Source: Psychrobacter fulvigenes
GTDB lineage: Bacteria; Pseudomonadota; Gammaproteobacteria; Pseudomonadales; Moraxellaceae
Assembly (NCBI RefSeq): GCF_904846155.1
Contig: NZ_CAJGZP010000001.1
Location: 1,550,001 to 1,614,000 of the forward strand
DNA length: 64,000 nt
Direction of reading: 5' to 3'
Shown here: piece by piece, positions 39,559-56,701 of the stretch
Layout: each line of letters starts with the position of its first letter
Numbering within the stretch: position 1 is the first letter of the stretch
Notes under the pieces: model-generated
Database searches by the model: none
The model's input: only the letters and a program-made list of their open reading frames with translations
What the model was told of the DNA's origin: nothing
Made by a program: the position numbers and the translations under genes

Positions 39559-42500
39559 ATGAATACTATTATCGTGAAGACTAATGATGCCACTCAGACC
39601 GTAGACCAAGTACAAGTAGTGACTAAAGATGGCAAGCCTACAATCATCACCGCTATGGATAAAGTGAATTACGAGTTTCATGATACTGCTATAGGTCGTG
39701 CACCCAACCATATTATCACTAAGCGCCTTAAAAATGATTTACATATCTCATTTGAAGAAGACGGTGAAGAAAGTGATCTTATTATAGAAGGCTTCTACGA
39801 TAGCGCAGACAGTGCATTGCTTGGTATTGCTGAAGATGGCGAGTACTATTATTATATTCCAGATACTGGTGAGACCTACGACTATGTAACTCAATTAGAG
39901 ATAGGTGATATTGAGGGTCAAGCTTTAGGAGGTCAGGAATATGTAGCAGTTGCTGCCATACCTTGGTGGATACCTGCCGCAGCTGGTCTGGGAGCAGTAG
40001 GTATCGTTGCGGCTAGCAGTAGTAATAATAACTCGTCAATCACTCCACCTGTTAATCAGGCACCAGTTGCCAAAGACGATACGGCAGAAGGCGAAACGGG
40101 TCAGCCTGTCATCATTGATGTGGTGGCAAATGATAAGGATCCTGAAAACGATCTAGACCCAACAAGTGTTAAGCTGATCGACCCTGTTACGGGCGATGAA
40201 GTCACCAGTTTAGTGGTAGATGGCGAAGGTACTTGGGAAGTAGATAGTACTACTGGTACAGTCACCTTTACCCCAGAGGCAGGTTTCACTAATGACCCAA
40301 CGCCAGTTGATTATGTAGTATCTGATAAAACGGGTTTAAAGTCTAACGAAGCAACCATTACAGTCGATTATCCAGCATTAGTCAGCATTAGTGGTACCAC
40401 AAGCTTGAATGAAACCGCCGCAGATGGCAGTGCCAATGAAGCGACTTATACCATCAGCATCAGCAAACCAAGTACGGAAGATACGGTGATTGAAGTCACC
40501 ATTAGTGATGGCAGCACCGAAGGGTCAGCGGACTATACCGCGCCTGTCACCCAGCTTGTGACTATCCCAGCGGGTCAAACGACGGTTGGTATCAGCGTTC
40601 CGATTGTGGATGACAATCTGTTTGAAGGCCCCGAGGACTTTACCGTTACCGTGACGGATATCACTTCAGGTACGGCAACGATAGGCCCTGATGACAGCGT
40701 CAACACCACCATCTATGATGATGGCACCACCGATGGCACAACCCCTGTCGATCCTAACGATCCTACGCTAGGAGATGACACCCCAGTGGCACCTATTACT
40801 GCCACTAAAGCCACCGCCATAGAAGGGGTGGACAACACCTTAGAGTACACCGTTGAGCAGGATAACGAGAGCAACCTTGCCACCACAGTCACTGTTAAAG
40901 TGGCGACGGGCAGCAGCGAGGTTGAAGCGGCGGACATTGCTTCTATTGGCTACATTGATGCCACAGGCAGTCCTGTGACCATTACCGACAGCGCCGCCAT
41001 CCAAGCGTTACTAAATGGCACCACCACCTTGCAAGTCAAAGTACCTGCAGGTAGCACAGCTGCGCCTAAAATTACGGTTATCGTCAAAGATGATGCCATC
41101 TATGAGGACAGCGAGCAGCTGAGCTTTGTTATCGACAGTGCTGATAATGCCGATATCGACAGCACCGTCGCCACTGGCACCATTTATGATGAAGACCGAG
41201 TAGCTGGTAGTGAAGATCGCTTAGGCGACTTTACTGATGGTGATGAAGCGCAGAGCACCGATCAAGGCACGCCTGTGAGTGGCAACTTACTGGATAACAC
41301 CTCAGAGACCGATCCGAGCATCAGCCTGAGTGTCTCGAACGTGCAAGTGGATACCGATGGTGATGGCGTACTAGACACCATCCCAACAGATGGCACCCCA
41401 ACCGCCGTCACCGATGTCAATGGCGACCCGATTGGCAGCATCACCGTTAATGCTAATGGTGACTACACCTTTACCCCAGATGCTGACTTTACAGGTGATG
41501 TCCCTGTGATTGGCTATGAGGTGGTTGATGGTAGTGGCAACGTCCTTGACGATTCTGTCTTAGACCTCACCGTTCTTCCAGGGCCAGTTACCATTGAGAT
41601 TGACGCTACCAAAGACCGCGCTATTGAGCGTCCAAGCAATGATGACACCTTAGAGTTCACCATCCGCCAAAATGTGGCCAGTGACCAAGATACCGTTGTT
41701 AACGTGCGCCTAGATGCAGCAAACAGTCCTGATATTACCGCCGGTGACATTGCGCGTTTGCAGTACACCAAAGCCGATGGCAGCGTGGTTGATACTACTG
41801 ATCAGGGTGAGATCAGCGCCTTCTTAGCCACTGGCGACGACGTCTTAATCGCTGCGGGCAGTAAAGAGAGCCTCATCACTATCAGCGTTGCTGATGACAG
41901 CGTTTATGAGCAAACTGAAGACTTAGGTCTGATCATCTCCAATGCTGTTAACCCTAATGGCGTCACCATTATCACCGCTACTGATAGCGGGGTGATTGAG
42001 GATGAAGCGGCACAAGATGGCACCCCACAAGAAGGCGACCGTCCGACCGTTGGCATTACTGCGAGCAAAGCCACCGCCATAGAAGGGGTGGACAACACCT
42101 TAGAGTACACCGTTGAGCAGGATAACGAGAGCAACCTTGCCACCACAGTCACTGTTAAAGTGGCGACGGGCAGCAGCGAGGTTGAAGCGGCGGACATTGC
42201 TTCTATTGGCTACATTGATGCCACAGGCAGTCCTGTGACCATTACCGACAGCGCCGCCATCCAAGCGTTACTAAATGGCACCACCACCTTGCAAGTCAAA
42301 GTACCTGCAGGTAGCACAGCTGCGCCTAAAATTACGGTTATCGTCAAAGATGATGCCATCTATGAGGACAGCGAGCAGCTGAGCTTTGTTATCGACAGTG
42401 CTGATAATGCCGATATCGACAGCACCGTCGCCACTGGCACCATTTATGATGAAGACGCTGCAGACGGAACACCGCAAGAAGGCGACAAACCGACCGTCAG

Positions 42501-45500
42501 CGTTGGCGATGCCGTTGCCACAGAAGGCGGCGACTTAGTGCATCAAGTCACCGTCAATGGTGAGACAACGCAGGCGGACGTCACCTATGAGTTTAACCTA
42601 GCGGATGGCAGCACTAATCCTGCCACAGCGGGTAGTGACTATACCAATGCCCCCGTATTTAGTAACGGCGTCATCAATAATGGCGATGGTACTATTACCG
42701 TTCCTGCTGGGGTCACTGACTTTACCGTCAGCTATCCGACACTCAATGACAGCATCCTTGAGAACGATGAAACCACCACGATTACCATTGGTAATGACAG
42801 TGGCATCGGTACGATCTTAGATAACGACACCGCGCCGACATTAACCATCACCGATAACAGCGTCACAGAAGCTACAGGTACGACCGTTAATGATACATTT
42901 GAAGTTACTGATCTCCAAAGTGTGACAAGTCTAACCATCAATGGACAGGAAGTAATCACAGCAATTACAACACCTGTTACCATTGTAGGCAGCGCGGGCA
43001 CGCTAGTAATTACTGGTTACGACACAGTAAATGAGTCATTCACTTACGAATATACAGAAAACGGCAATGCAGAAGATCATAGCGCTGGTGCGGTATTTGA
43101 TCAGTTTGACGTGGTATTAACCAACACCATTGGCGATACTATTAATGACACCTTAGATATTGAAATCATCGACACCGCACCGACTGCTAATGATGACAAA
43201 AACACCATTAGCGAAGAAACAGATATCGTTTCAGGCAACGTGCTTACGTCAACGGGTGCCGCGACAGATGATGTGGCTGATGATCTAGGTGCTGATAATT
43301 CAATAACAGCAACTACGGTAACAGCAGTGGATGGTAACACTGGTGCAATTGGAAGCGGTACACAAGGTCAATACGGTGAACTAACGCTAGATGTGAATGG
43401 TGAATATACCTATGATGTTGATAATGCCGCTATACAGTATTTGGCACTAGGTGAAAGTTTAACAGAAACCTTTGAATACACCATAACCGACGCTGATGGT
43501 AGTACTGATACTGCCAAGCTTACCATTACTATCACCGGCACTAATGATCAACCAACCATCACTGCTGATAGTAATGACAATATTGCGAATATATCTTTCG
43601 TCGAGCAAACAGGTGACTCAGTGATTACTCAAAGTGGCATTATTGCTTTTAGTGATATTGATGTCAGTGATACGCTGACACTGGGTTATATTGAAGGTGA
43701 AAACCAATATACCTTTGGTCAAGGTAATACAGCCTTGACTGATCTAACTGTTCCGCAAAAAACTGCGCTAGAAGATATGTTCTCAGTTGCTCAAGCGAGC
43801 AATAGTAATGATGGCACTTGGAACATCAACGCCACTTCCACGGCACTCGATTTCCTCCCAGAAGGCGAAACCATCACCATCCGCTACGCCGTACAAGTGA
43901 ATGATAATAAAGGAGTGGATACTGCTGCTAACGGTAACGAAATCAGCACCAGTGAAATCCGTTACGTGGAAGTCACTCTTACAGGTACTAACGATGGTGG
44001 TATTGCGTTGGCTGATAATACGATTACCATCAATGAAAACGGAACGACAACTAAAAGTGGCAAGCTAGCCACTATTTTTGATGCAAATGATACTGATGAC
44101 CCAGATGTAGGCGAGCAGCTAACGGTAGAAAGCTTCCAGATTGGTGGTGGAACCGCTATTGCTGTAGATCCTGTCAATACAAACAATACCGCTCAAAATG
44201 TTGTCATCAACGGCAATACAGTTGGTACCGTAAAGTTCAATAGTGACGGAACTTACGAGTATAAAGCGACCAGTGACTATAGTGGTACACTACCTGTCAT
44301 CACTGCGAACGTCTCAAATGGTGTTACTGGTGCTACTCGTGAAACAGATAGTCAGACCTTAACAATTACTGTCAAGCCAGTATCTGACAAGCCTATACTT
44401 GCACCTAATAAAACAGTATTTATAGACGAAGATAATACCAAAGCATTAGGTCTCAAAGCACCTATTATCAAAGACGCGATAGACCTTGATGGTACAGGTA
44501 ACAATACCGATAACCCTGAACGCATTGGTTTAATTACTTTAAGTGGTGTCCGTGCGGGCACAACGTTGAATTATAAGCTCAATGGCGTGGACAAAACTAT
44601 AACATCAACTGGCGCTAATATTACAATTAAGCTTGATGATGTGCCTACTATTAATAGCGCAGGCACTGCTACCGCTACTATGTCAAAAGCTGATTTTGAG
44701 GCAATGACACTCACACCGCCTAAAAATGATGCCACTAACTTTAATATAAATATGTCAGTGACGGAATATGAAGTTAATGAAAGCGGTGATATTGCGCGGG
44801 TTGACGCCAATGGCAGTCTTGTTAACACAGGTGGCACAGCTGTTGCAGGAGCGACATCTACAACCACTATCAAGGTCGATGTTCAAGCCGTGACTGATAG
44901 TAATGATAAAAACCAAAGTGGTGATGATGCTAGCTCGTTTGGTTATGACCAAAATGAAGTTGTTGGGGATACTTTAGCCGTAACACTCGAAGAAGGGGAA
45001 TCTGTTGATTTACCAATAACCACTACCTTTGGTGATTTAGTAGGTAGTGCCGCTAAAGGCGATGCTGAGACTTATGGCTTTGTGATTACAGGTCTAGTCC
45101 CTGGCGCCATTATTAACTTCACACCTGCTGGCAGCTCTGAGTCGCTTCCCCCATTCATCGCCGATGAGAATGGTCAGGTATTGATCGGTATTAATGCTGG
45201 CTTAACTTCTACTGATTTTGTAGTCAGTGGTAACTCGGAGCCTAAAATCACTATTCAGACTGGGAAGTTTGATTCTCTAGATATGAATGGTGTGGAAATA
45301 TCGCTATATACTCAAGATCATGACCCTGATTCAGCTATCAAAAATACCTCTGTAGAGCTGATTGGTACAGTAAAAGTAAATCTCACCGTCACCCCAGTTG
45401 CTGGTCAAGTTGAGCTTGATAATCAAGGTGTCACAACCAAAGAAGACACTGCTGTCACCCTTGATGAGTTTGGCTTTAAAGTGCTGGATGATAAGGATGG

Positions 45501-48500
45501 CGCTGGTGCAGAATTTATCACCGATATTAGTTTTGTCCTACCAGAAGGCTGGACGTATACTGATAATAGCAATAATGTAACGGTAGGGGCAGTTGGTGGA
45601 ACATCAATATCGATTAGCGGCATTACTGCAAACGACAATTTTAATTTAGATGCTTATTTGCAAGACTTCTCTATCACTCCACCAGCGCATTCGTCATTAG
45701 ATGCAGACTTTACCTTTACCGTTACTACCCAAGATACTGATGATGATGGCGGTAATACAACCACTGGAACGCCAGACAACCCATTCACCCAAACCGTTGT
45801 CGTCACCCCAGTCGCTGAAAAAGTTGTTGACGATAATGGTGACGTAGTAGACAGTGACGGCGATGGTACACCTGACCTAACCATTAATCCAGATAAAAAT
45901 TACACGACCAAAGCAAAAGAAGACGCAGCATTTGATCTTAATAGTGATGGGTTTGACCTACAAGGCTATTGGAACAACCAAGATACCTCTGAAGATACCT
46001 TCGCCCATATGACCTTTGGTAATAAGAGTGATAGCGGCTTCACCTCAGTTGAAGGAGCAGTATTTACTTATATCAATCGCGATACGGGTGAGACGATCAG
46101 CCTGACTGACAACGGCAATGGTGTCGATATTCCGATGGAGTACCTAGACACCGTCACCGTAACCCCGCCGCAAGACTATAGTGACTTCAACCTTGCTAGC
46201 GGTGCCGAGACAGCAGTCAAGGTCGAGGCAAAAACTGTCGATGTTGACGAAGATGATGACGATAATACCGTAAGTGAAGCCACCAGTGGCGAAAGCTACC
46301 TAACCTTTGAAGTCGAAGGCGTGGCAGATCCTGTAACCTTAGCGGTTGATCCAGCGTATGGTGATGAAGATCAGGCGCTGGCGCTTGGTAATGAACGTGA
46401 TAACGACTCACCAACAGCGGTTATTAATCCTACCGATGGTATCCCACTCAATATCCGACCAAGCTCACGTGATAATGATGGCTCTGAGACTTATGAGGTT
46501 CGGATTAGCAATATTCCAGATGGGGCAATATTATACGTTGGCTCAAACCCAGCTGCCTTAACGCTAGATACCAGCCCTAATGCTGAACCAAATACATATA
46601 CGGCCATCATATCAGGCTATACTGTAGATAGTGCGCCAGACTTGTATTTCGTCCCACCCGAGAACTTTAGTGGCACTGTGCCTCTCAAGGTTCAAGCGAA
46701 GAGTATTGAGAGCGATGGTGATGAATCAGATTTCTTCCCAGCAGGTACCCTAACTGATCCAGCATTGACACTACCAGTTAAAGTCATTGGCAAGGCAGAC
46801 TTAATAACCAATGACGACTTAGCAACCGACACAGATACCATCGATGGTGTGGATTACACACATAACTACATCACTGACGAGGCAACGCTAGACAGTACAG
46901 GCAACCATCAGATTGCCTTATCGAGCGTATTTGCTACTGTTGAGGATATCGAGGCATATGATGGTGACAGCCCAGCTGCTGAGCAGGTGGTCTATCGGGT
47001 CGAAGACTTACCTGCTAGTTTTAACTTAACTGGTGCAGGGGTCACTTTCTTAGGTGGCAGTGGTTCTGATCGAGTATGGTCAGTAACCCTAGAGGCGCTA
47101 CAGAATAATACCGCACAATTAAAGACACCAGATAACTTCGCTGGTGAAATTAACTTTACCATCACGGGTACCACCACCGAGACCAAATCTGGTGACAGTG
47201 TGACTCATGATACCAAAGACGTTTCTATTCTAGTGACCCCTGATGCTGATGATGGCACAGTGAATAATCCAGAGGTCGTTGCTACTGAAGATATATGGGC
47301 GACTATTGACTTTGAATCAGCCTTTATAACGACAGATCAGGGTGACTCAGCGACAGGAACAGAATCACTTGAGAGTATCACGCTATCAGCAACTGATCTA
47401 ATAGATAAAGATGTCGTTTTACGTGTTGACGGTAGCGAAGTGGACTTAACAACTAATCCACCACCAATTTTGACATTTACGCCCGATCAGACAATCGAGA
47501 TTATGTACGATGAGGATAAACGCCATAGCGATGATGATGTCAGTATAGACTTTGACTATACTTATACTGACACCGCTGAGCTGACTGATAGTTCACAGAT
47601 TAGTGCTTCTAAAATAGGCAGTGCAACGGTAGACGTGACCTTCCAAGCGGTCACTGATGCACCAAGCATGAGTTTAGAGGTTACCGATGGCACCATTAAT
47701 AATAGCGGTACGGATAACTTTGCCAAAGTCACTGTTTCATTAACCTCAGATGATAAAGACGGCTCAGAGAGCTTTACTCGCCTAGAGGTCACTGATGTTC
47801 CTGATGGTCTAAATGTAGTGGGCGGTATTTTGTCAAATGGTATTTGGTACGTTGATGTTCCTAATGATCCAGCTATTACCGACACTGCAGCGACTTATGA
47901 GCTAGTGCTTGAGCGTAACGACAGCACAGTCAATATACCTGAAGGTTCTCTCAATATTAAAGTGACGGGTATTACGCAGGATATTAATGGTCAAGGTAGT
48001 GACGGTAGCGAAGCGCGTGTAACCGAGAGCTTTGAGATCGCAATAGAGAGGACAGATGGTGGTGTCACACCTGTCAAGCCTGACTTAATAGATAGCTTTA
48101 CTAGCAAGGCAGAAATACCAGCACAGGTAGAGGATACTGGTTTTACTCTTGGCGACATACTAGATGCGACTCTAAATCCTGCGACCGCTAACACGGTCAG
48201 ATCTTATACTTTCTCATTGACTGATCTGCCAGCAGGCACTGAAGTATCTACTGATAATCCAGCTATAAGCGTGCAGCAAATTGGCGGTAAATGGATCATC
48301 AGTATAGATGATGCAAGTAGCCTCAGTCCAGAAGACGCACTTGATGCAGTGACAGTGACTCCGCCGAAAGATTTTAGTACCAACGTCACAGACGATAGCC
48401 AGGATCTTACCTTTAATGCCAACTTTACTGCGTTGGATAAAGATGGTGGCGAGGAACGAGTGCAGGTTGACGACGTCAAGGTTGAGATCAAGCCAGTTAC

Positions 48501-50292
48501 GGATCCGATAGACAATGATGGTAAAACCACGACAGTTGATACGGATGAGGACACCAAAGTAGAAATTGAGATCGACTTAACCAACACGGCTGACGGTAAT
48601 AATGTTGAGATTATTAATAATAAGCTATATCTGCAGCTGGATGAGTCTGGTCTAACGACTGATAATGGCACTAGCGGAAAACTAACGGATGACAATGGTA
48701 ACGACTTGACGCTTGTAACATTGGCAGATGGTGACGTTGCTGATATTCCAGCTGGTGATTATTATATCGTAGATGTCGGCACGCCTATTTTTTATGAACC
48801 TGCCGAAAATGAAGACGGCACGGCAACAGTTGATGTCTATGCCGCTCATAAAGAAAGTCATAATATCAGCGGACATGACAGTGGTACAAAGACTTATAAG
48901 CACAGTTATGACGTCACAGTCGAGTCGCAGCCAGACAATCTAAGTATTACTGATAAGAGTGATCAATCAACAACCACTGCTAGCGGTAATGAAGATACTA
49001 TGATTGCTATCGACTATAAGATTGCGACTATCGATAAAGACGATACCGATGCCGTTACTGCCATTACCTTAGACAATATCCCTAATGGTTATCTGATCTA
49101 CTATACCGATACTAATGGCGATCCCGTCTTGGCAAGTAACAATGGTAATTCTGGTGGTAATAACTCATGGTCTATTGACGCCTCCAAACTGGGTGATATC
49201 AATCCTGGCGAAACGTCAAATATATTCATCATGCCACCGGAAAACGTCAGTGGTATCGTGTCTGGTATCGAGATGAAAGTGGTCAATGACAGCGGGATGA
49301 TCAGTGCTCCGCTAGAGATTGATCTTGAGGTCAAACCAGTCGCTGATGGGGTAGCTGCTAATCCTTCTACTATTCTTGGTAGTCAGGGTAAGTGGACCAC
49401 GCTGAATCTAAACGCAATTATGCAAGATACGGATGGTAGTGAGACCGTTAATATAGTTGTCACTGATAATGGTGTTAGCTTAACCGATGATGTCTTACGC
49501 TTTAGAGTGAAGAGTACAGGTGAAATGTTGACTGCCGTGTGGGATGATGTCGCTAACAGCTATACCATAACGGGTATTACTCCTGAGCAAATCAATGATT
49601 TACAAATTCAGTCTTCCATACCGTTAAAAGGCGATCTGGACTTTGCGCTTAGTACTACCGATAAAGCTACAGGTATGGCTGATAGTGTATCAACTGAAGT
49701 GACCGAAAAGGTATCTGTAGATATTGTCTTTACCAAAACCTTTGGAGGCACACCTGAAGATGATATCTTTGATGCCTCAGGACAGTCCGTACCTGTGAAT
49801 TATAAAGGCGGCGCAGGTGATGACACCTTAATCGGTGGCAGTGGTAATGACTTCCTTGATGGCGGTACAGGTGCTAATACGCTGATAGGCGGTGCTGGTA
49901 ACGATAAGTTGGTGTTCTCTGCTGATAACCTACTGATGGATGGTGGCGACGGCATCGATACCTTGCTGATCAATACCGCTGGTACGACTATCGACTTTAG
50001 TAGCTTTGATAGTAGCGTGATTGATAACATGGAAGTCATAGAACTGGGTGTTGGCGCGCAGTCATTGTCTAATCTTACTACCAGTGATGTCATTGAAATG
50101 ACAGATAGCAACAATGAGCTGTTTATCAATGGCGATAATGCTGATAATGTGGAGCTGTCTGGTAATGATTGGACAAATACCAATACAACCACTACCCAAA
50201 ACGGTAACACTTATGAGGTTTACAGCTTTAGTGATACGAATGGCAGTTATAATGTGATGATTGACACTGATATCACTACCACAGTGATATAA
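39559..50292 (+). CDS. Giant type I-secreted repetitive adhesin (BapA/LapA type)
   Basis: A 3577-residue surface adhesin for biofilm or surface binding. Order of parts: residues 1-160, an N-terminal region ending in [14 protein letters not shown] (the prefix-like region of BapA/LapA proteins, with AAAG at 140-143 as a possible LapG-type site); about 165-275 a CshA/cadherin-like domain ([10 protein letters not shown]); several Calx-beta domains up to about 1100, two of them identical; a VCBS domain near 1205-1330; a long set of varied Ig/cadherin-like domains with IPDGAI-type motifs; and at about 3417-3450 RTX calcium repeats ([22 protein letters not shown]) before a C-terminal type I secretion signal. 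I see no Cys. AAGG precedes the ATG. Its own transporter genes lie beyond the IS element. Confidence 0.95.
40807..41196 (+). repeat. 390-bp perfect repeat within the adhesin, copy 1
   Basis: Identical at every base to 42067-42456, 1260 bases away, in the same frame. It codes for about 130 residues of a Calx-beta-like domain (starting [14 protein letters not shown]). Confidence 0.95.
42067..42456 (+). repeat. 390-bp perfect repeat within the adhesin, copy 2
   Basis: The second identical copy; the flanking DNA differs sharply on both sides (ACTAAAG versus GCGAGCAAAG before, CGAGTAGC versus GCTGCAGA after). Identity including third codon positions points to recent duplication or gene conversion. 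Confidence 0.95.
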
Positions 50293-50345
50293 CGCAAAAC
50301 ATATCAGCAATAGCAATATCCAAAAAGCCATACCTGTGAGTAATG

Positions 50346-50376
50346 CCAGTCAGTTAAGGCTGACTGGTATTTTTTT
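50346..50376 (+). terminator. Terminator-like hairpin in the left end of the IS
   Basis: CCAGTCAG pairs with CTGACTGG around TTAAGG, followed by TATTTTTTTT. It overlaps the inverted end and would stop transcription coming from the adhesin gene. Confidence 0.75.
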
Positions 50377-51655
50377 TGGGATATTTTTGTGGTTTACCCT
50401 TAACCACCCTCGGGCAAGATCGCTTTCTGCGTTCAGGAATGACAAACAATTTTCCTTCCTCTAAAACTGCATCTAACAACTTAGGGAAGAGTCCTGCAGC
50501 CTGTAAAGGCGCAAACCGTAAAAGATCAACAATCGTAATAGACACCATATGAAAGCTAATTCGTAGAGGGCTAACCTTAGCTCTAACTGCCATATATCGC
50601 ATCAAACGTCTTATCAGATTATAAGCAATCATAAGCCCCCAGAACTCTTGTAACACAAGCTGTGGCAGCTTACTTCTTAACAACAGCCCCTGCTGTAGAT
50701 CAGACTTAATTTCCCTAAAAGCCATCTCGATCTCCCAGCGCTGCAAGTACAGCTGTGCCACTTTATCCTTAGTAAAGCGTTTATCATCTATTAAAGAGGT
50801 GATGTATCGTCTTATCTTACCCTCATAACGACACTCAATTAATCGAGCTTGCCAAGTATCGGGTAGGTTTGGATTTTTCTTTTGAGCTTGGGGAGAAACC
50901 GGCATTTGTATCAAGTAGTCCCCTTCACTAAAGGTTTCAATCACAGTGTAACGCAGATTATCTTTAGCCCGCATGAGCCAGTGACTGTTTGGATGGGTTT
51001 GTTGCCAACTAATCAGTAGGTCTGCTGAGAAATAGGCTCTATCAAAGAGCGTAATGCTGTTGTCTTGAATATTTAGCTGACGGGCTAATGTGATCTCTCC
51101 TTGACCCATATCTCCAAGGGTTGTGTCAATGATCTCATGCGTGTCAGTATTGATCAGGCATACCGAACGCATTTGGGGATAGGGCGCCTCTTTAGTTCTG
51201 CCTTTGCTTGAACTAAAGTACTGAAGGTTCTCATCAGTATAGGGTAGTGAGTATACGACACCGTCTACAGCTTGGACGCTAAGTCCCATAAAGTCTTGCT
51301 GCTGGGCTCGTGATTCTGTTTGGTAGTGAGCACTTAGTTGATGAAATAGCTGCTTTAGAGGCTCATGCCCGAGGCGTTGTCTTGCTTGTACCACTGCACT
51401 GGGTACGCAGGCCTGTGAGTCTATATTAAGCCGCATCTGCTCTGTGATATACCAAATTGAACGGTTTCGATATAAAGCTGTGCCGATGACTATCCAAACA
51501 ACGTGTTCGGCAGGTAGCTTACGCCTTCTAATGCTCGCCTTGCCGGTATACTCTAAAGCTTGCTGTATCCACTCAGGGTCTATTAATTCACTAAATTGTT
51601 CTAGGGTGTCTGGAATCCTTTTATGCGTCTCATTAATAGCGTCTTGTAGTCTCAT
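50354..51655 (-). CDS. IS4-family DDE transposase
   Basis: 433 residues. The N-terminus (TGKASIRRRKLPAEHVVWIVIGTALYRNRSI) and the YREK signature in YLQRWEIEMAFREIK place it in the IS4 family; VDGVVYSLP and TLFDRAYFSADLL supply the two Asp of the DDE triad, with Glu in the YREK motif. Two starts: ATG 51670 lies inside a strong hairpin, and ATG 51655 just after it; I choose the second. The frame is intact. The hairpin is typical of devices that keep transposase translation low when transcripts enter from outside. Confidence 0.93.
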   Translation of the reverse strand: MRLQDAINETHKRIPDTLEQFSELIDPEWIQQALEYTGKASIRRRKLPAEHVVWIVIGTALYRNRSIWYITEQMRLNIDSQACVPSAVVQARQRLGHEPLKQLFHQLSAHYQTESRAQQQDFMGLSVQAVDGVVYSLPYTDENLQYFSSSKGRTKEAPYPQMRSVCLINTDTHEIIDTTLGDMGQGEITLARQLNIQDNSITLFDRAYFSADLLISWQQTHPNSHWLMRAKDNLRYTVIETFSEGDYLIQMPVSPQAQKKNPNLPDTWQARLIECRYEGKIRRYITSLIDDKRFTKDKVAQLYLQRWEIEMAFREIKSDLQQGLLLRSKLPQLVLQEFWGLMIAYNLIRRLMRYMAVRAKVSPLRISFHMVSITIVDLLRFAPLQAAGLFPKLLDAVLEEGKLFVIPERRKRSCPRVVKGKPQKYPKKNTSQP

Positions 51656-51660
51656 AGTAA

Positions 51661-51691
51661 AATAGCCCATCTACTTATTAGATGGGCTATT
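51661..51691. promoter_or_regulatory. Hairpin before the transposase start
   Basis: AATAGCCCATCTA at 51661-51673 pairs perfectly with 51679-51691 around a 5-base loop. In the minus-strand RNA it sits directly before ATG 51655 and swallows ATG 51670, so it can block ribosomes. Confidence 0.75.
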
Positions 51692-51754
51692 TTATTACTT
51701 TTATTGAGTTTTTGCCTTAACTGACTAGCATTACTACCTGTGATGGCTTTTTTG

Positions 51755-52624
51755 TTATCTTAGGTCATCCGTCTTTTGCAGGTCAGCAGTGGGTGTGGTC
51801 AGATAATCGTAAGTTAAGCCCGATACAGGCTCTTTTTCTGCTAAAATTACTTCTGATTCGGACTTTGGTTTTGAAGTGGCGTCAAGCTTTGACTGAGTCT
51901 CTAGCATGATGGCTTGTTGCGTATCTATTTGTTGTTGATTGCGCTGTTTGATCTCATTGATTAGCGTTGAGAGCTGTTCGCTGTCTTTATCGATATCTGC
52001 ATTTAGCTGCTGAGTTTCTTGGGTTTGCTGCAGTCGATATCCAGACAGATTTTGTTGCTCACCATTGACAGCTCTGTTATTGATAGTCGTCACTGAAAGA
52101 TCATCATTGTCATCGCTATCCTTGCTCAAAGAGGCCCTGCGCTTTGTCTCTATAACAGACGGCTCTTGTGACGAAGTGGGCTTTTGGGGTGGTGTATGCT
52201 CTTGCGGTTTATGGTTTTGGGTCGCAGTATTGTTGTTTGATACGTGGGCTGCTGATGCGGTAGGTTCTGTATTTGCGCTCACTTTAGCGGTAAAAACCTC
52301 TGTATCATCAACTGTGACCTGATCAACCGCTATTTGATCAATTGTGATTTTAGTGTCTTCTGCTATCATAGGTTTGCTGGTAATAGGCTGGTTTTTATTT
52401 ATTAAGGCTTGCGATTCAGACGTTTTTTTGTGGTCGAATACGGTAAAATAGACAACGATTGCCAGCAAAGCATGCAGTAATAGAGCCAATACGATGGTTA
52501 GGATCGGCTGATCTTTTGGTTTGCTCGTTGGCGTAGGCGCTGAAGGGTGAGGCATAGAGTAATCCATATGTTGACGCTGAGGCTCAAAACTTTTTAATAA
52601 ACGCTTCAATACGTCTTTAAGCAT
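51755..52624 (-). CDS. TolA/TonB-like single-span protein of unknown function
   Basis: 289 residues: a cytoplasmic N-terminus of about 38 residues, one membrane span (about 41-64, ILTIVLALLLHALLAIVVYF), a periplasmic Thr/Ser/Pro/Gln-rich stretch, and a helical coiled-coil-like part (about 195-250, with LNADIDKDSEQLSTLINEIKQRNQQQ). The layout is that of TolA and TonB, and the His in the span fits TonB-like proteins, but the globular C-terminal domain is absent. Divergent from the tolC gene of the secretion system (66 bases between), so it may serve it. I do not recognise a family. Confidence 0.65.
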   Translation of the reverse strand: MLKDVLKRLLKSFEPQRQHMDYSMPHPSAPTPTSKPKDQPILTIVLALLLHALLAIVVYFTVFDHKKTSESQALINKNQPITSKPMIAEDTKITIDQIAVDQVTVDDTEVFTAKVSANTEPTASAAHVSNNNTATQNHKPQEHTPPQKPTSSQEPSVIETKRRASLSKDSDDNDDLSVTTINNRAVNGEQQNLSGYRLQQTQETQQLNADIDKDSEQLSTLINEIKQRNQQQIDTQQAIMLETQSKLDATSKPKSESEVILAEKEPVSGLTYDYLTTPTADLQKTDDLR

Positions 52625-52690
52625 TGATAATCATCACGATGAACTTTGTTATTATCTAAAAAACAATAGCAGCAAAGAAGCCATAATATC

Positions 52691-54289
52691 ATGTTGCACT
52701 TTTATTTTTATCCCGATCAATCCCAAGCAATGATCAAAAAGCCAATGTTTAAAAGGTGCTTTATCATAAAAAAACTACGTCATAGCTTATCACCTTTGGT
52801 ATCGACAACCGCAATAGGTATGTTACTGATGACGCTATCAAGTGCGGCATTTGCCAATGCTGATATGCATGTCAACACCTTGATCAGTCAAGCCATCCAG
52901 AGCCATCCGCTGGTCGGCGCGGCGCGTGCAGAACAACAAGCCACGACTGAGAGTATTCGTGCTGCCAAGCTAAATATGCTACCTGCTCCTACCTTGTCAT
53001 CAGGCTATGATCGCGACGATGGCATGGTCTCTCAGCTGCGGCTGCGCCAGTCTTTATGGACTGGTGGCAAGCTGACGGCGAATGTCAATCAAGCCGTCTT
53101 TGATGATAAAGCGGCGACAGAGTATGTATACGAACAACAAAACCAAGTTGCTAAGACCACGATTGAAGCGTGGCAAAGCTATATCACAGCTGTGTCTAAG
53201 CAGCGTGTCTATTATGATAACTTGCAGCTGCTGACTGAGTTTGAAGAGATGATGCAACGCCGTGTCAGTCAAGGAGTATCGGCACGTATCGAAATGGATT
53301 TAGTGACCAACCGTATATTACAAGAGCAAAATGCTTATCAAGCGGCGGTAGAGCAGCAGCGTATAGCGATGGCGCGTTTAGAGCAGATAACTGGCCGCCG
53401 GCTATCAGCTGTTGAGCTACCAGTACCGAATCTAAGCGAGCTTGTCAGCCAAGCTAAAGGGTACTCACAAACCTTTGAGCAAATGGCTTTTGATCAAGCC
53501 AGTTTTTACAACCCTACTGTAGTAAAAGAACACTATCAAGTTGAGGCTGCTAAGCAAGGGGTAAAGTCATTACAGGCAGCGCGTTATCCTACTTTTTATG
53601 CGCAGTACGAATACGACTACTATCATGATAAAAATAAAAATAACAATCAAAATGAGAGTGATGGTGAGTTTTCTATAGGTCTGAGCTATGATCCAGGGGC
53701 GGGCCTATCTAATCTGGCGCTGGCGCGGGCATCAGAGTCGCGAGTGAACAGTCTTGTACAGTCAAAAGAAGCATCAAGACGTTCAGTGCTTGAAACCATC
53801 CAAACTCAGTATCAGCAATTTGCCAGTGCCAAAGATCAAGAGCACTCCTTGATCGCTGCAGTTGCAGGTGCGCAGATAGTAGTCAGCTCTTACCGTCGTC
53901 AGTTCATTGCTGGTCGTAAATCTTGGCTTGAAGTGCTCAATGCAGTACGTGAGCATTCTCAGTATCAGGCACAGTTGGTTGAAACCCGAACTTCTATCAT
54001 TGCAGCTTATTATAAGCTGCAAGTTGATTTTGGTATGATGTCTTGGCAGAAGTTTGATCAAAGTCGTCAGCCAGAGCCCTTATTCCATCCGCTGGATCCT
54101 GTTAAAAAATGGCTGACCCGTCAAGATGTGGCAAGACAAGCGCCTGATCAGGCAGTCATTCAACCTATCGTTATGAAAGAAGAGGATAAAGGTATGGTAA
54201 CTTATCCTATTAACGATCCTATCAGTGACGCTTTGAGTAATAACTATCTTAGCGATACCAGCACAGGCTTGCTAACAGATAGCCCTTAA
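52691..54289 (+). CDS. TolC-family outer membrane protein of the type I secretion system
   Basis: The outer membrane channel (LapE/AggA type) of a type I secretion system for the adhesin. About 532 residues: a long N-terminus, signal peptide (about 37-57, LMTLSSAAFANA), then two outer membrane efflux repeats (PF02321) with LISQAIQSHPLVGAARAEQ, LRQSLWTGGKLTANV and the second repeat FYAQYEYDYYHD with ISIGLSYDPGAG-like strand. An extension of about 70 residues ends the protein (EPLFHPLDPVKKW onward). Start may be one of several downstream Met codons (residue 14 or 19). Next genes are the ABC ATPase and the adaptor. Confidence 0.9.
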   Translation: MLHFYFYPDQSQAMIKKPMFKRCFIIKKLRHSLSPLVSTTAIGMLLMTLSSAAFANADMHVNTLISQAIQSHPLVGAARAEQQATTESIRAAKLNMLPAPTLSSGYDRDDGMVSQLRLRQSLWTGGKLTANVNQAVFDDKAATEYVYEQQNQVAKTTIEAWQSYITAVSKQRVYYDNLQLLTEFEEMMQRRVSQGVSARIEMDLVTNRILQEQNAYQAAVEQQRIAMARLEQITGRRLSAVELPVPNLSELVSQAKGYSQTFEQMAFDQASFYNPTVVKEHYQVEAAKQGVKSLQAARYPTFYAQYEYDYYHDKNKNNNQNESDGEFSIGLSYDPGAGLSNLALARASESRVNSLVQSKEASRRSVLETIQTQYQQFASAKDQEHSLIAAVAGAQIVVSSYRRQFIAGRKSWLEVLNAVREHSQYQAQLVETRTSIIAAYYKLQVDFGMMSWQKFDQSRQPEPLFHPLDPVKKWLTRQDVARQAPDQAVIQPIVMKEEDKGMVTYPINDPISDALSNNYLSDTSTGLLTDSP

Positions 54290-54394
54290 TCCTTTTGCTT
54301 TCTAAATCGTAAAACGTTTATGAATAAATAAGATGACTTTTATTCGCGTTACTTATCTATTTAACTACCCGTTAATCAGTAGGATATATTTATC

Positions 54395-56701
54395 ATGAGT
54401 ACACCTGTCCCAGCTTCGAGTGACCCTACATCTGACAGTGAGCTGACAGCAAATCCTACTTCAAATTTATTGACACTTGATCCCGATGAGCAAACAAATG
54501 AGCAGGGGGCACAGTTGGCTGCGGCGCTACACACTTTGCTCACTCAGCAAGGGTATCCTGTTGATAGTGTGCGTCTTTACGGAGTGATACATCAGCAGAC
54601 AGAGCTGACAAGACTGGCAAGTATTGTCAAGATATTGGAGCAGTTAGGAGTTGATCAGCTGCCAGAGGCTTTACCAATGCCAGATGCGGCATTTTTGCCT
54701 TTATTGGCTTTACATCCCGTCCAGGGATGGGGGGTAATTCATCAACAGACCCCGCAGGGGCTGTGGCAGTTTAGCCAGTCTGAGAAAATTAGTGTTCATC
54801 CAAGTGATGCGTTTACACAATTACTGCGTATTCGCTTAGAAAGCGAGCCCAGCAAGCGTAAACAGCTGTCTTTTGACCAACTATTAAAAAAAGATCTAAA
54901 AAACTATCGTGGTATTGTCGTTGAAGCGGTAGTAGCGTCATTTTTGATTAATATTTTAGCATTGGCAGTGTCGCTTTTTTCGATGCAGGTTTATGATCGT
55001 GTGATTCCAACCCGGAGTGAATACACTCTCATTATTTTAGCCAGTGGGGTGGGTCTCGTCATCTTGTTTGAAACTTTTATGAAGTTTGCCCGATCCAAGA
55101 TTATGGATAAAGTAGTGGTCAACTTAGATCAATACCTATCTCGCGAAGTTTTTCAACGCTTGCTGAATGTACGTATTGATCAGATGCCAGGTTCGGTAGG
55201 GTCTATGGCAGCACAGCTACGCGGTTATGAGCAAGTGCGTGGGTTCTATACGGCAAGTACGCTATTTGGTTTGGTTGATATACCGATGGCGATTATATTT
55301 GTGACGCTCATTGTCATTATTGGCAATCCGTTGGTAGCCCTAGTGCCTATTTTGGCTGCTGTTGTCGCAATTATAATAGGATTCAGTGCGCGCAAAAGAA
55401 TCGATAGTATTGCGGCGGTTGGCGCGTCAGCTTCTTACCGTAAAACTGGTATCTTAGTTGAGACCGTAGAGGGCGTTGAAACGATAAAGGCTGGATCAGG
55501 CAACTGGAAGTTTTTGTCACGTTGGCTTGATGTGATGAGTATCACTACCAAAAACGATCTGGACATGAAACATGCCAATGATAACTTGAGTTTTTTGTCG
55601 CAGATGATACAGCAGACCAGCTATGTAGGCATTGTGATTGTTGGCTCGTTTGTCGTGATGTCAGGAGATATGACCATGGGTGGCTTGATTGCCTGCTCTA
55701 TTTTAGGCGGTCGTATTCTAGCACCAATTATGGGTATTCCCAATCTACTGGTACAGCACTCACATGCCAAAGCAGCAAAGCTTAATATTGAGCAGCTGTT
55801 CTCGCTAGAACAAGATAACCACGGGGTCAGTCATCCGCTATCGCCCAGTCATATCTCGGGTAATTTTGACCTAGATAAGGTAACTTTTAACTATCAAAAT
55901 AATGACCAGCCTGCATTGGCTATTAACAGACTTCAAATAAAGGCGGGCGAGCGCATCGCGGTTTTGGGGCCAATCGGTTCTGGTAAGTCGACTTTGTTAA
56001 AAGTGCTATCAGGATTGTATGCACCTACTCAAGGCCGAATATTATTAGATGGACTTGATATTCAACAGATTAGCCGCGAGTCTTTAAGCGCGCAAGTCGG
56101 CTATCTACAACAAGATCATCGTCTATTTGAAGGTACTTTACGGGAGAACTTATTGATTGGCCTACCAGCCCCAAGTGATGATGTCATGCGTGATGCACTC
56201 ATAAAGACGGGGTTGATTAAGTTGGTTGCCAGCCACTCTAGTGGCTTAGACTTGCCGATCAGTGAAGGAGGTAAGGGGTTATCAGGTGGTCAAAAACAAC
56301 TGGTGGCGTTTACTCGCTTAGTACTAACCAAGCCTTCCGTTTTGTTGATGGACGAGCCGACAGCCTCTATGGATAGTCGGCAAGAAGCTCAATGTATCGA
56401 AGTACTTAGCAAAAATTTTGGCAGGGAGCATACTCTAATTGTTGCTACCCATAAAATGCCACTATTACGCTTGGTCGATCGTATTATTATTATGGATAAC
56501 CAACAAATAGTAATGGATGGGCCCAAAGAAAAAGTACTTGCACAGTTAAAAGGTAATGATGATCAAAAGAATACAAAGAGGACTTCAGTTAAGATTAGTA
56601 ACCCTAAGACGCGCATAGTCAGTAAAGACACTTCAAGCATTGAGCTAAAAACCGATGATCAATCTCATCAAGATGATAACCTAGGGCCAAATAATGAATA
56701 A
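54395..56701 (+). CDS. Type I secretion ABC transporter (LapB type)
   Basis: The inner membrane ATPase that drives export of the adhesin. 768 residues: an N-terminal C39-peptidase-like domain without the catalytic Cys (about 40-150), an ABC membrane domain with six spans (about 170-450), and an ATPase domain (about 490-720) with Walker A GPIGSGKST, signature LSGGQKQ, Walker B SVLLMDEPTA and the switch His in VATHKMP. The last about 50 residues are charged and low in complexity. Overlaps the next gene by eight bases. Confidence 0.94.
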   Translation: MSTPVPASSDPTSDSELTANPTSNLLTLDPDEQTNEQGAQLAAALHTLLTQQGYPVDSVRLYGVIHQQTELTRLASIVKILEQLGVDQLPEALPMPDAAFLPLLALHPVQGWGVIHQQTPQGLWQFSQSEKISVHPSDAFTQLLRIRLESEPSKRKQLSFDQLLKKDLKNYRGIVVEAVVASFLINILALAVSLFSMQVYDRVIPTRSEYTLIILASGVGLVILFETFMKFARSKIMDKVVVNLDQYLSREVFQRLLNVRIDQMPGSVGSMAAQLRGYEQVRGFYTASTLFGLVDIPMAIIFVTLIVIIGNPLVALVPILAAVVAIIIGFSARKRIDSIAAVGASASYRKTGILVETVEGVETIKAGSGNWKFLSRWLDVMSITTKNDLDMKHANDNLSFLSQMIQQTSYVGIVIVGSFVVMSGDMTMGGLIACSILGGRILAPIMGIPNLLVQHSHAKAAKLNIEQLFSLEQDNHGVSHPLSPSHISGNFDLDKVTFNYQNNDQPALAINRLQIKAGERIAVLGPIGSGKSTLLKVLSGLYAPTQGRILLDGLDIQQISRESLSAQVGYLQQDHRLFEGTLRENLLIGLPAPSDDVMRDALIKTGLIKLVASHSSGLDLPISEGGKGLSGGQKQLVAFTRLVLTKPSVLLMDEPTASMDSRQEAQCIEVLSKNFGREHTLIVATHKMPLLRLVDRIIIMDNQQIVMDGPKEKVLAQLKGNDDQKNTKRTSVKISNPKTRIVSKDTSSIELKTDDQSHQDDNLGPNNE

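Follow-up and report, generated by a model that had tools for sequence, protein, structure and literature searches.

Intrinsic terminators are already known as targets of one class of mobile DNA: group IIC introns insert at them, like the element described here, but these are retroelements that use another mechanism and settle beside the stem, not in the loop. Targeting of a palindrome axis is known among insertion sequences too. ISRm22, from the IS4Sa subgroup of the IS4 family, sits on the axis of REP palindromes, and IS1397, IS621 and other REP-targeting elements share the palindromic target, but belong to other IS families and enter REPs rather than terminators (Tobes and Pareja 2006, PMC1525189). 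ISRm22 resembles our element in being of the IS4 family and inserted on a symmetry axis; it differs in that the REP target is a repeated sequence family, whereas here the stems vary from site to site and the shared part is a frame of A-tract and G/C bases.

For IS4, target-arm specificity was noted by De Palmenaer (2008, PMC2266710), and the words terminator and attenuator are absent from that text. IS4 names a large family of transposons whose target rule has so far been given, in those parts of the literature covered, only as conserved target arms. In the full-text literature searched we found no statement that IS4 elements target terminators; subscription journals lay mostly outside that search, so prior notice may exist. 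Palindrome-axis targeting is therefore known already, and what we did not find spelled out is the terminator as target of the IS4 subgroup. Recognition of the arms as bidirectional terminators would explain copies lying mostly past gene ends and would predict new landing places. It also makes it possible to decide by experiment between sequence and structure as the feature of a terminator to which a transposase responds, and the loss of a terminator, with its possible replacement by the element's ends, is a suggested route of change in the transcription boundaries between bacterial genes.

The element and its surroundings

The window, that is the whole 64,000-nucleotide stretch of Psychrobacter fulvigenes DNA analysed, contains the following features in the region of interest.

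39559..50292, + strand: 3577-aa gene upstream, adhesin-like by eye, with 29 bp between the end of its stop and the left terminator arm
50322..50331: interrupted terminator, left arm AAAAAGCCAT, an A-tract half-site; the terminator is intact in L260 and L261
50330..50340: left target-duplication copy, ATACCTGTGAG, read as 11 bp, with perfect core TACCTGTGA at 50331-50339
50341..51733, transposase on - strand: IS4-subgroup insertion sequence, 1393 bp, ends TAATGCC...GGCATTA
50346..50377, + strand: hairpin and T-run that read inward from the transposase 3' end, formed by the terminal repeat as CCAGTCAG TTAAGG CTGACTGG, then TATTTTTTTT
50354..51670, - strand: transposase, 438 aa, Nterm_IS4 and DDE_Tnp_1 domains, YREK motif Y-LQ-R-WEI-E-MAFREI-K
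51655..51697: hairpin of 19 bp spanning the start region of the transposase; it resembles a terminator on the + strand and has a weak U-tract on the - strand
51734..51744: right target-duplication copy, CTACCTGTGAT, read as 11 bp, with perfect core TACCTGTGA at 51735-51743
51743..51753: interrupted terminator, right arm with T-run, ATGGCTTTTTT
51755..52624, - strand: convergent gene, 289 aa; its stop codon starts one base past the terminator T-run

The region 39559-56701 combines the huge repeat-rich adhesin-like frame with others whose translations, judged by eye, look like an outer-membrane factor (52691-54289) and an ABC transporter (54395-56701), presumably an order of the kind found in type I secreted adhesin loci. 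The convergent gene gave no match in a Pfam search.

The IS4-family element that was originally predicted is confirmed, at 50341-51733, by its coding content. PF13006 and PF01609 both score above cut-off in the transposase, which also matches the IS4 family model NF033592 with 249 bits against a cut-off of 115 and contains, as YLQRWEIEMAFREIK, the YREK signature Y(2)R(3)E(6)K of the family (De Palmenaer 2008, PMC2266710). In that paper the IS4 subgroup is given ends of the form -AATR with WTW further in, direct repeats of 10-13 bp and a size of 1400-1650 bp. The element ends, TAATGCCAGTCAGTTAAGG, fit this pattern. Duplications at clean sites run from 10 to 14 bp and are most often 11, in agreement with the subgroup, 14 bp being reached at one Acinetobacter and one E. 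coli site; the element's size falls 7 bp under the typical published range.

The genome of the window holds 11 copies of the element (the other 11 of 22 search rows are self-matches of internal hairpins). Relatives are present in 7 of 105 genomes of the genus and in 22 of 348 genomes of the family at E 1e-60. A class-wide search with E. coli InsG at E 1e-50 matched only the genome of the window (1 of 369).

The interrupted terminator

Removal of the element leaves just the terminator that had been proposed, a 10-bp stem with the 7-base loop ACCTGTG and a T-run, and the empty sites of two other Psychrobacter genomes agree with this reconstruction except at one loop base. The uninterrupted terminator, AAAAAGCCATACTTGTGATGGCTTTTTTG, lies behind the same adhesin-like gene in both (G012, locus L261; G007, locus L260), and at L261 the right flank also matches the window over 263 bp. 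The G012 empty site folds with -13.1 kcal/mol (z -3.8), none of 200 shuffled sequences being equally good. A second sequence folded as an empty site proved to span an IS junction, was no better than its shuffles and was discarded.

The prediction erred in equating the target duplication with the 7-base loop: clean copies elsewhere carry the longer repeats given above, and that of the window copy can be read either as a perfect 9 bp (TACCTGTGA) or as 11 bp in which the innermost base of each repeat is mismatched. At 50340 and 51734, next to the element, stand G and C, as against T and A in the empty site. Possibly these are two base changes, or else each element end brought one extra base pair.

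Insertion sites in other genomes

We assembled 101 complete sites with distinct flanks, comprising 24 from Psychrobacter, 63 from Acinetobacter, three from one further genome of the same genus group (G210) and 11 of E. coli IS4. The Acinetobacter transposase is around 60% identical to that of the window and the G210 homologue 39%. Acinetobacter sites were taken by rank among the matches listed; those of E. coli come from 16 of the 40 matches listed, plus K-12 (H1-H8, H23 and H26-H40 were left out, and 2699 further records lie outside the set). Six duplicate E. coli loci (L248-L252, L257) and two one-end Psychrobacter loci (L087, L088) were excluded, and draft-genome copies with a single junction (L055-L061, L063-L065, L067, L068, L070-L074, L089-L094) were judged separately by eye. 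The 101 sites are not all independent events, since L180 and L197, like L247 and L255, may each stem from one insertion.

A hairpin was considered strong and centred when it scored at least 20 near the centre of the duplication, the search allowing 4 bp; 16 served as a looser threshold. Scores of at least 20 were reached at 20 of 24 Psychrobacter sites, 59 of 63 in Acinetobacter, all three in G210 and nine of 11 in E. coli, making 91 of 101 overall. Comparison of other copies with random intergenic positions, put forward along with the original prediction, thus shows a clear enrichment in terminator hairpins: against the 20 of 24 Psychrobacter sites stand 1.7% of 2000 control positions, and the corresponding controls (2000 positions each) gave 3.2% in Acinetobacter, with 2.2% in a second draw, and 1.8% in K-12 stretches. 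Copies spread outside hairpins would have told against the idea, but most other copies proved to be in hairpins too. Scores fall below 20 at ten sites, below 16 at seven of them (L003, L075, L102, L167, L183, L198, L202) and between 16 and 20 at three. The window copy itself (L001) scores exactly 20, no higher because its imperfect duplication spoils the join of the flanks.

When the flanks are joined, eleven of the 101 sites lie within open frames of 70 aa or more; where annotation was consulted, it shows a broken gene only at bcsG. At four sites (L004, L008, L102, L132) the flanks show 4-6 mismatches when read as a duplication, and their sequences suggest recombination between element copies or rearrangement after insertion.

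More distant relatives across the order were inspected by eye at 11 loci. Five are complete sites in hairpins flanked by A/T tracts (L276, with a short T-tract, L277, L279, L286 and L288), two are not in such hairpins (L283, L290), one has unmatched halves (L281) and three lack an end pair (L278, L282, L284).

Hairpins at the element ends

The claim that the left end of the element carries a hairpin and T-run of its own also held (50346..50377), and similar structures occur in Acinetobacter copies and E. coli IS4. In all, seven elements were folded, and inward hairpins are predicted at both ends of each. The 3'-end hairpin consists of the terminal repeat paired with an internal copy, then a T-rich run, in the window element and one other from Psychrobacter, in three from Acinetobacter and in E. 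coli IS4; in G210 the 3' hairpin has no T-run. The 5'-end hairpin stops immediately ahead of the start codon or overlaps it. A T-run accompanies this hairpin in G210, E. coli and all three Acinetobacter elements but is weak in Psychrobacter, and the 5' hairpin of the window copy is called a terminator on the + strand only.

By their anatomy the end hairpins fit the idea of a replacement terminator. They could stop transcription arriving from either flank, restoring the termination lost with the broken terminator and, by blocking read-in to the transposase gene, keeping the transposase quiet. Terminator-like ends that act in this manner would lower the cost of insertion and may let the element spread with little harm.

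The 5' hairpin at 51655-51697 is flanked by A/T-rich arms, but in length its stem-loop exceeds the terminators hit. As an idea only, the greater length may spare the element from self-insertion.

Target geometry

Geometry and stems were analysed in 96 sites, after exclusion of five whose duplication copies differ at two or more bases (the window copy L001 and L004, L008, L102 and L132). The sites have in common, about 3 bp outside each cut, an A-tract with a T-tract as its mirror image. Adenine frequencies at -7 to -5 are 98-100% among 42 half-sites of Psychrobacter and 97-99% among 128 of Acinetobacter and G210; G/C bases follow towards the cut, with C at +1 in about three quarters. In 186 of 192 half-sites, 2-4 bp separate the innermost AAA from the cut. 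The cut therefore falls at a nearly fixed distance from the A-tract on each side, and the duplication is the sequence in between. Its length does correlate with the distance from A-tract to T-tract (rho 0.58, n=91), but that distance includes the duplication, so the correlation is partly arithmetic and not the main evidence. The terminators hit span 14-20 bases, with one at 28.

AAA-N20-TTT is a consensus for IS4, and a paper reportedly describes IS4 in the pheST attenuator; neither the consensus nor that paper was found in the full-text literature searched.

On this evidence, IS4-subgroup machinery probably selects symmetric intrinsic terminators by way of inverted half-sites, and the element's end hairpins could replace the terminator that is broken. 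The signal for the transposase is most likely a pair of inverted half-sites in double-stranded DNA, in each of which G/C bases follow an A-tract lying about 3 bp outside the cut; cleavage between the two would give a 10-14 bp duplication covering the loop and inner stem. Paired half-sites are largely confined to bidirectional terminators in these genomes, so that such an element would land mostly just past gene ends.

Sequence or hairpin as the signal

An alternative that we consider unlikely, though it accounts for several of the findings, is that the transposase recognises the hairpin itself, whether as an extruded cruciform, as a loop opened by transcription or through a polymerase paused at the terminator. 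The arms of a site pair with one another into an inner stem at 19 of 21 Psychrobacter sites (90%), 59 of 61 Acinetobacter sites (97%) and eight of 11 E. coli sites (73%), whereas arms swapped between sites do so in 22%, 31% and 14% of cases, respectively. Since own arms pair so far above swapped arms, real hairpins are being hit, beyond a shared consensus, as this alternative would have it. The same figures (22-31% across sites against 90-97% within them) show that the targets of Psychrobacter and Acinetobacter are not one repeated family of the REP type. Insertion at the palindrome axis is, however, shared with REP-targeting elements: among sites scoring at least 20, the dyad lies no more than 1 bp from the duplication centre at 20/20 in Psychrobacter, 59/59 in Acinetobacter, 3/3 in G210 and 8/9 in E. 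coli, a precision that also speaks for hairpin recognition.

Tract spacing alone likewise predicts fewer hairpins than are seen. Intergenic places with A and T tracts at the right spacing form an inner stem in 15 of 49 cases in Psychrobacter and 69 of 131 in Acinetobacter, far less often than the sites (19/21, p 4e-6, and 59/61, p 6e-11), which means that correctly spaced tracts are insufficient. Finally, an IS3-family-like element with different ends and short duplications enters terminator loops too (see below).

Other observations argue for sequence, beginning with the narrow range of the A-tract-to-cut gap. When a matrix of the half-sites was used to find places in the Psychrobacter and Acinetobacter genomes, to which both the matrix and the terminator-hairpin sample are confined, many were hairpins on the strength of sequence alone: 44 of 49 in Acinetobacter, about equal to the sites themselves (58/61, p 0.46), and 14 of 29 in Psychrobacter, somewhat less often than the sites (16/21, p 0.08). 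Terminator-like hairpins without an A-tract are common and yet rarely hit. In 400-kb samples, A fills at least four of the five bases before the stem in 45 of 312 such hairpins in Psychrobacter and 77 of 305 in Acinetobacter (14-25%). The same rule counts 18 of 21 Psychrobacter and 56 of 61 Acinetobacter sites as terminators, and among these 17 of 18 and 51 of 56, respectively, have the A-tract.

The inner-stem threshold failed at seven of the 96 clean sites (L003, L075, L167, L176, L198, L200, L202). Six of these keep at least three of four A in both tracts, again in favour of sequence, and the exception is L202, which, like L183, has no tract on at least one side. At L200 the hairpin is good but displaced from the centre by 1.5 bp.

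A rule based on the hairpin only is weakened by the half-site-matrix background and by the symmetry of the A-tracts. From the sequences compared, we favour a target choice that would be a readout of symmetric A-tract/GC half-sites more than of the hairpin as such. Places found by the matrix are often hairpins, however, so structure may play a part beside the sequence readout.

Other insertion sequences

A 395-aa element was tried as a control and rejected on finding that it is itself of the IS4 family and sits in terminators; six rve-type groups were used instead. The 395-aa element, IS4Sa-like by its ends, CATTGCTGTCCC, was sampled at L292-L311 in two Acinetobacter genomes (G154 and G238), and 16 of its 20 copies score at least 20 by script. 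The three with the lowest scores (L294, L306, L310) do show hairpins in their flanks, the script having set their ends wrongly.

One rve-type group, resembling the IS3 family (domains HTH_Tnp_1 and rve, ends TGAACTGACC, duplications mostly of 3-4 bp), has all three of its copies in the genome of the window in terminator loops (L349-L351). Across the genus, 24 copies were scored from 42 rows (L352-L371, L378-L381), two of them own-genome copies already in the set of three; 20 reach 16 and 18 reach 20. The remainder comprise one copy truncated where its contig stops and three that, by eye, look off-centre. It is possible, although we advance the idea only tentatively, that terminator loops are a niche found more than once, by the IS4 subgroup, by IS4Sa-like and by IS3-family-like elements, with IS4 ends repairing the lost termination, and that the aim is perhaps taken via a cruciform or stalled polymerase and not by sequence alone.

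The other five rve-type groups, with 12, 8, 7, 6 and 4 copies (G238, G268 and the genome of the window), placed none of 37 copies in hairpins even at the threshold of 16, in a set of which only the last four copies are from Psychrobacter and whose ends, placed by script, could be wrong by a few bases. Selection acting on insertion sites in general therefore does not explain the hairpin pattern. This bears on survivorship, the possibility that insertion is random and only copies past gene ends survive. Many sites do lie within 60 bp past an ORF stop (16/24 in Psychrobacter, 60/63 in Acinetobacter, 2/3 in G210 and 7/11 in E. coli), but intergenic positions drawn from just such places (2000 each) reach a score of 20 in only 3.4% of cases in Psychrobacter, 7.5% in Acinetobacter and 5.6% in K-12 stretches, and the base-precise geometry would be left unexplained. 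We thus regard survivorship as very improbable. That hairpins are instead products of insertion, for example by recombination between element ends, has in its favour the four sites with mismatched flanks, where rearrangement after insertion seems to have occurred, but is refuted for the sites checked by empty terminators in element-free genomes and hardly deserves credence elsewhere.

The original suggestion that the element chooses terminators as its targets is supported, then, by the strong hairpins at 91 of 101 sites, by the empty sites where checked and by the contrast with the 37 copies of other elements.

Sites of IS4 and IS186 in E. coli

E. coli IS4, likewise of the IS4 subgroup, is among the known systems closest to the window element. 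The transposases are 35% identical over 417 aa, the left end of IS4 is TAATGCCAGTCAGTTAAG, as in the window element, its duplications are of 11-14 bp, inward hairpins with T-runs are found at both ends and, as noted, nine of 11 sites score at least 20. It differs in that the K-12 copy (L198) and the copy in bcsG (L202) have no convincing hairpin and in that three of the 11 sites are in a single terminator, that of adhE.

The K-12 stretches contain three of the 11 sites without an insertion, at zapB/rraA (99% over 108 bp), raiA/bamD (99% over 104 bp) and bipA/yihL (96% over 108 bp, where the loop differs). At four more, K-12 has another element in the same loop: IS186C splits the nupC terminator (L199) and an ISZ' remnant that of adhE (L247, L255, L258). 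No match to L198, L200, L202 or L256 was found in the K-12 stretches compared.

IS186 of K-12 is a parallel case, the three copies looked at (A, B and C; L272, L382, L383) all being in G/C-rich palindromes. One is in the nupC terminator, which is also an IS4 target in strain AR_0013; the other two sites have no flanking A/T tracts. The target form read from these three sites, GGGG-N6-CCCC, is also the one known for IS186.

The adhE terminator has been hit repeatedly, by IS4 in both orientations in other strains and by ISZ' in K-12 (L247, L255, L258, L273). At bipA/yihL, the centre of the terminator is inverted between K-12 and the strain bearing IS4, as a 30-bp match on the opposite strand reveals (L253, L274).
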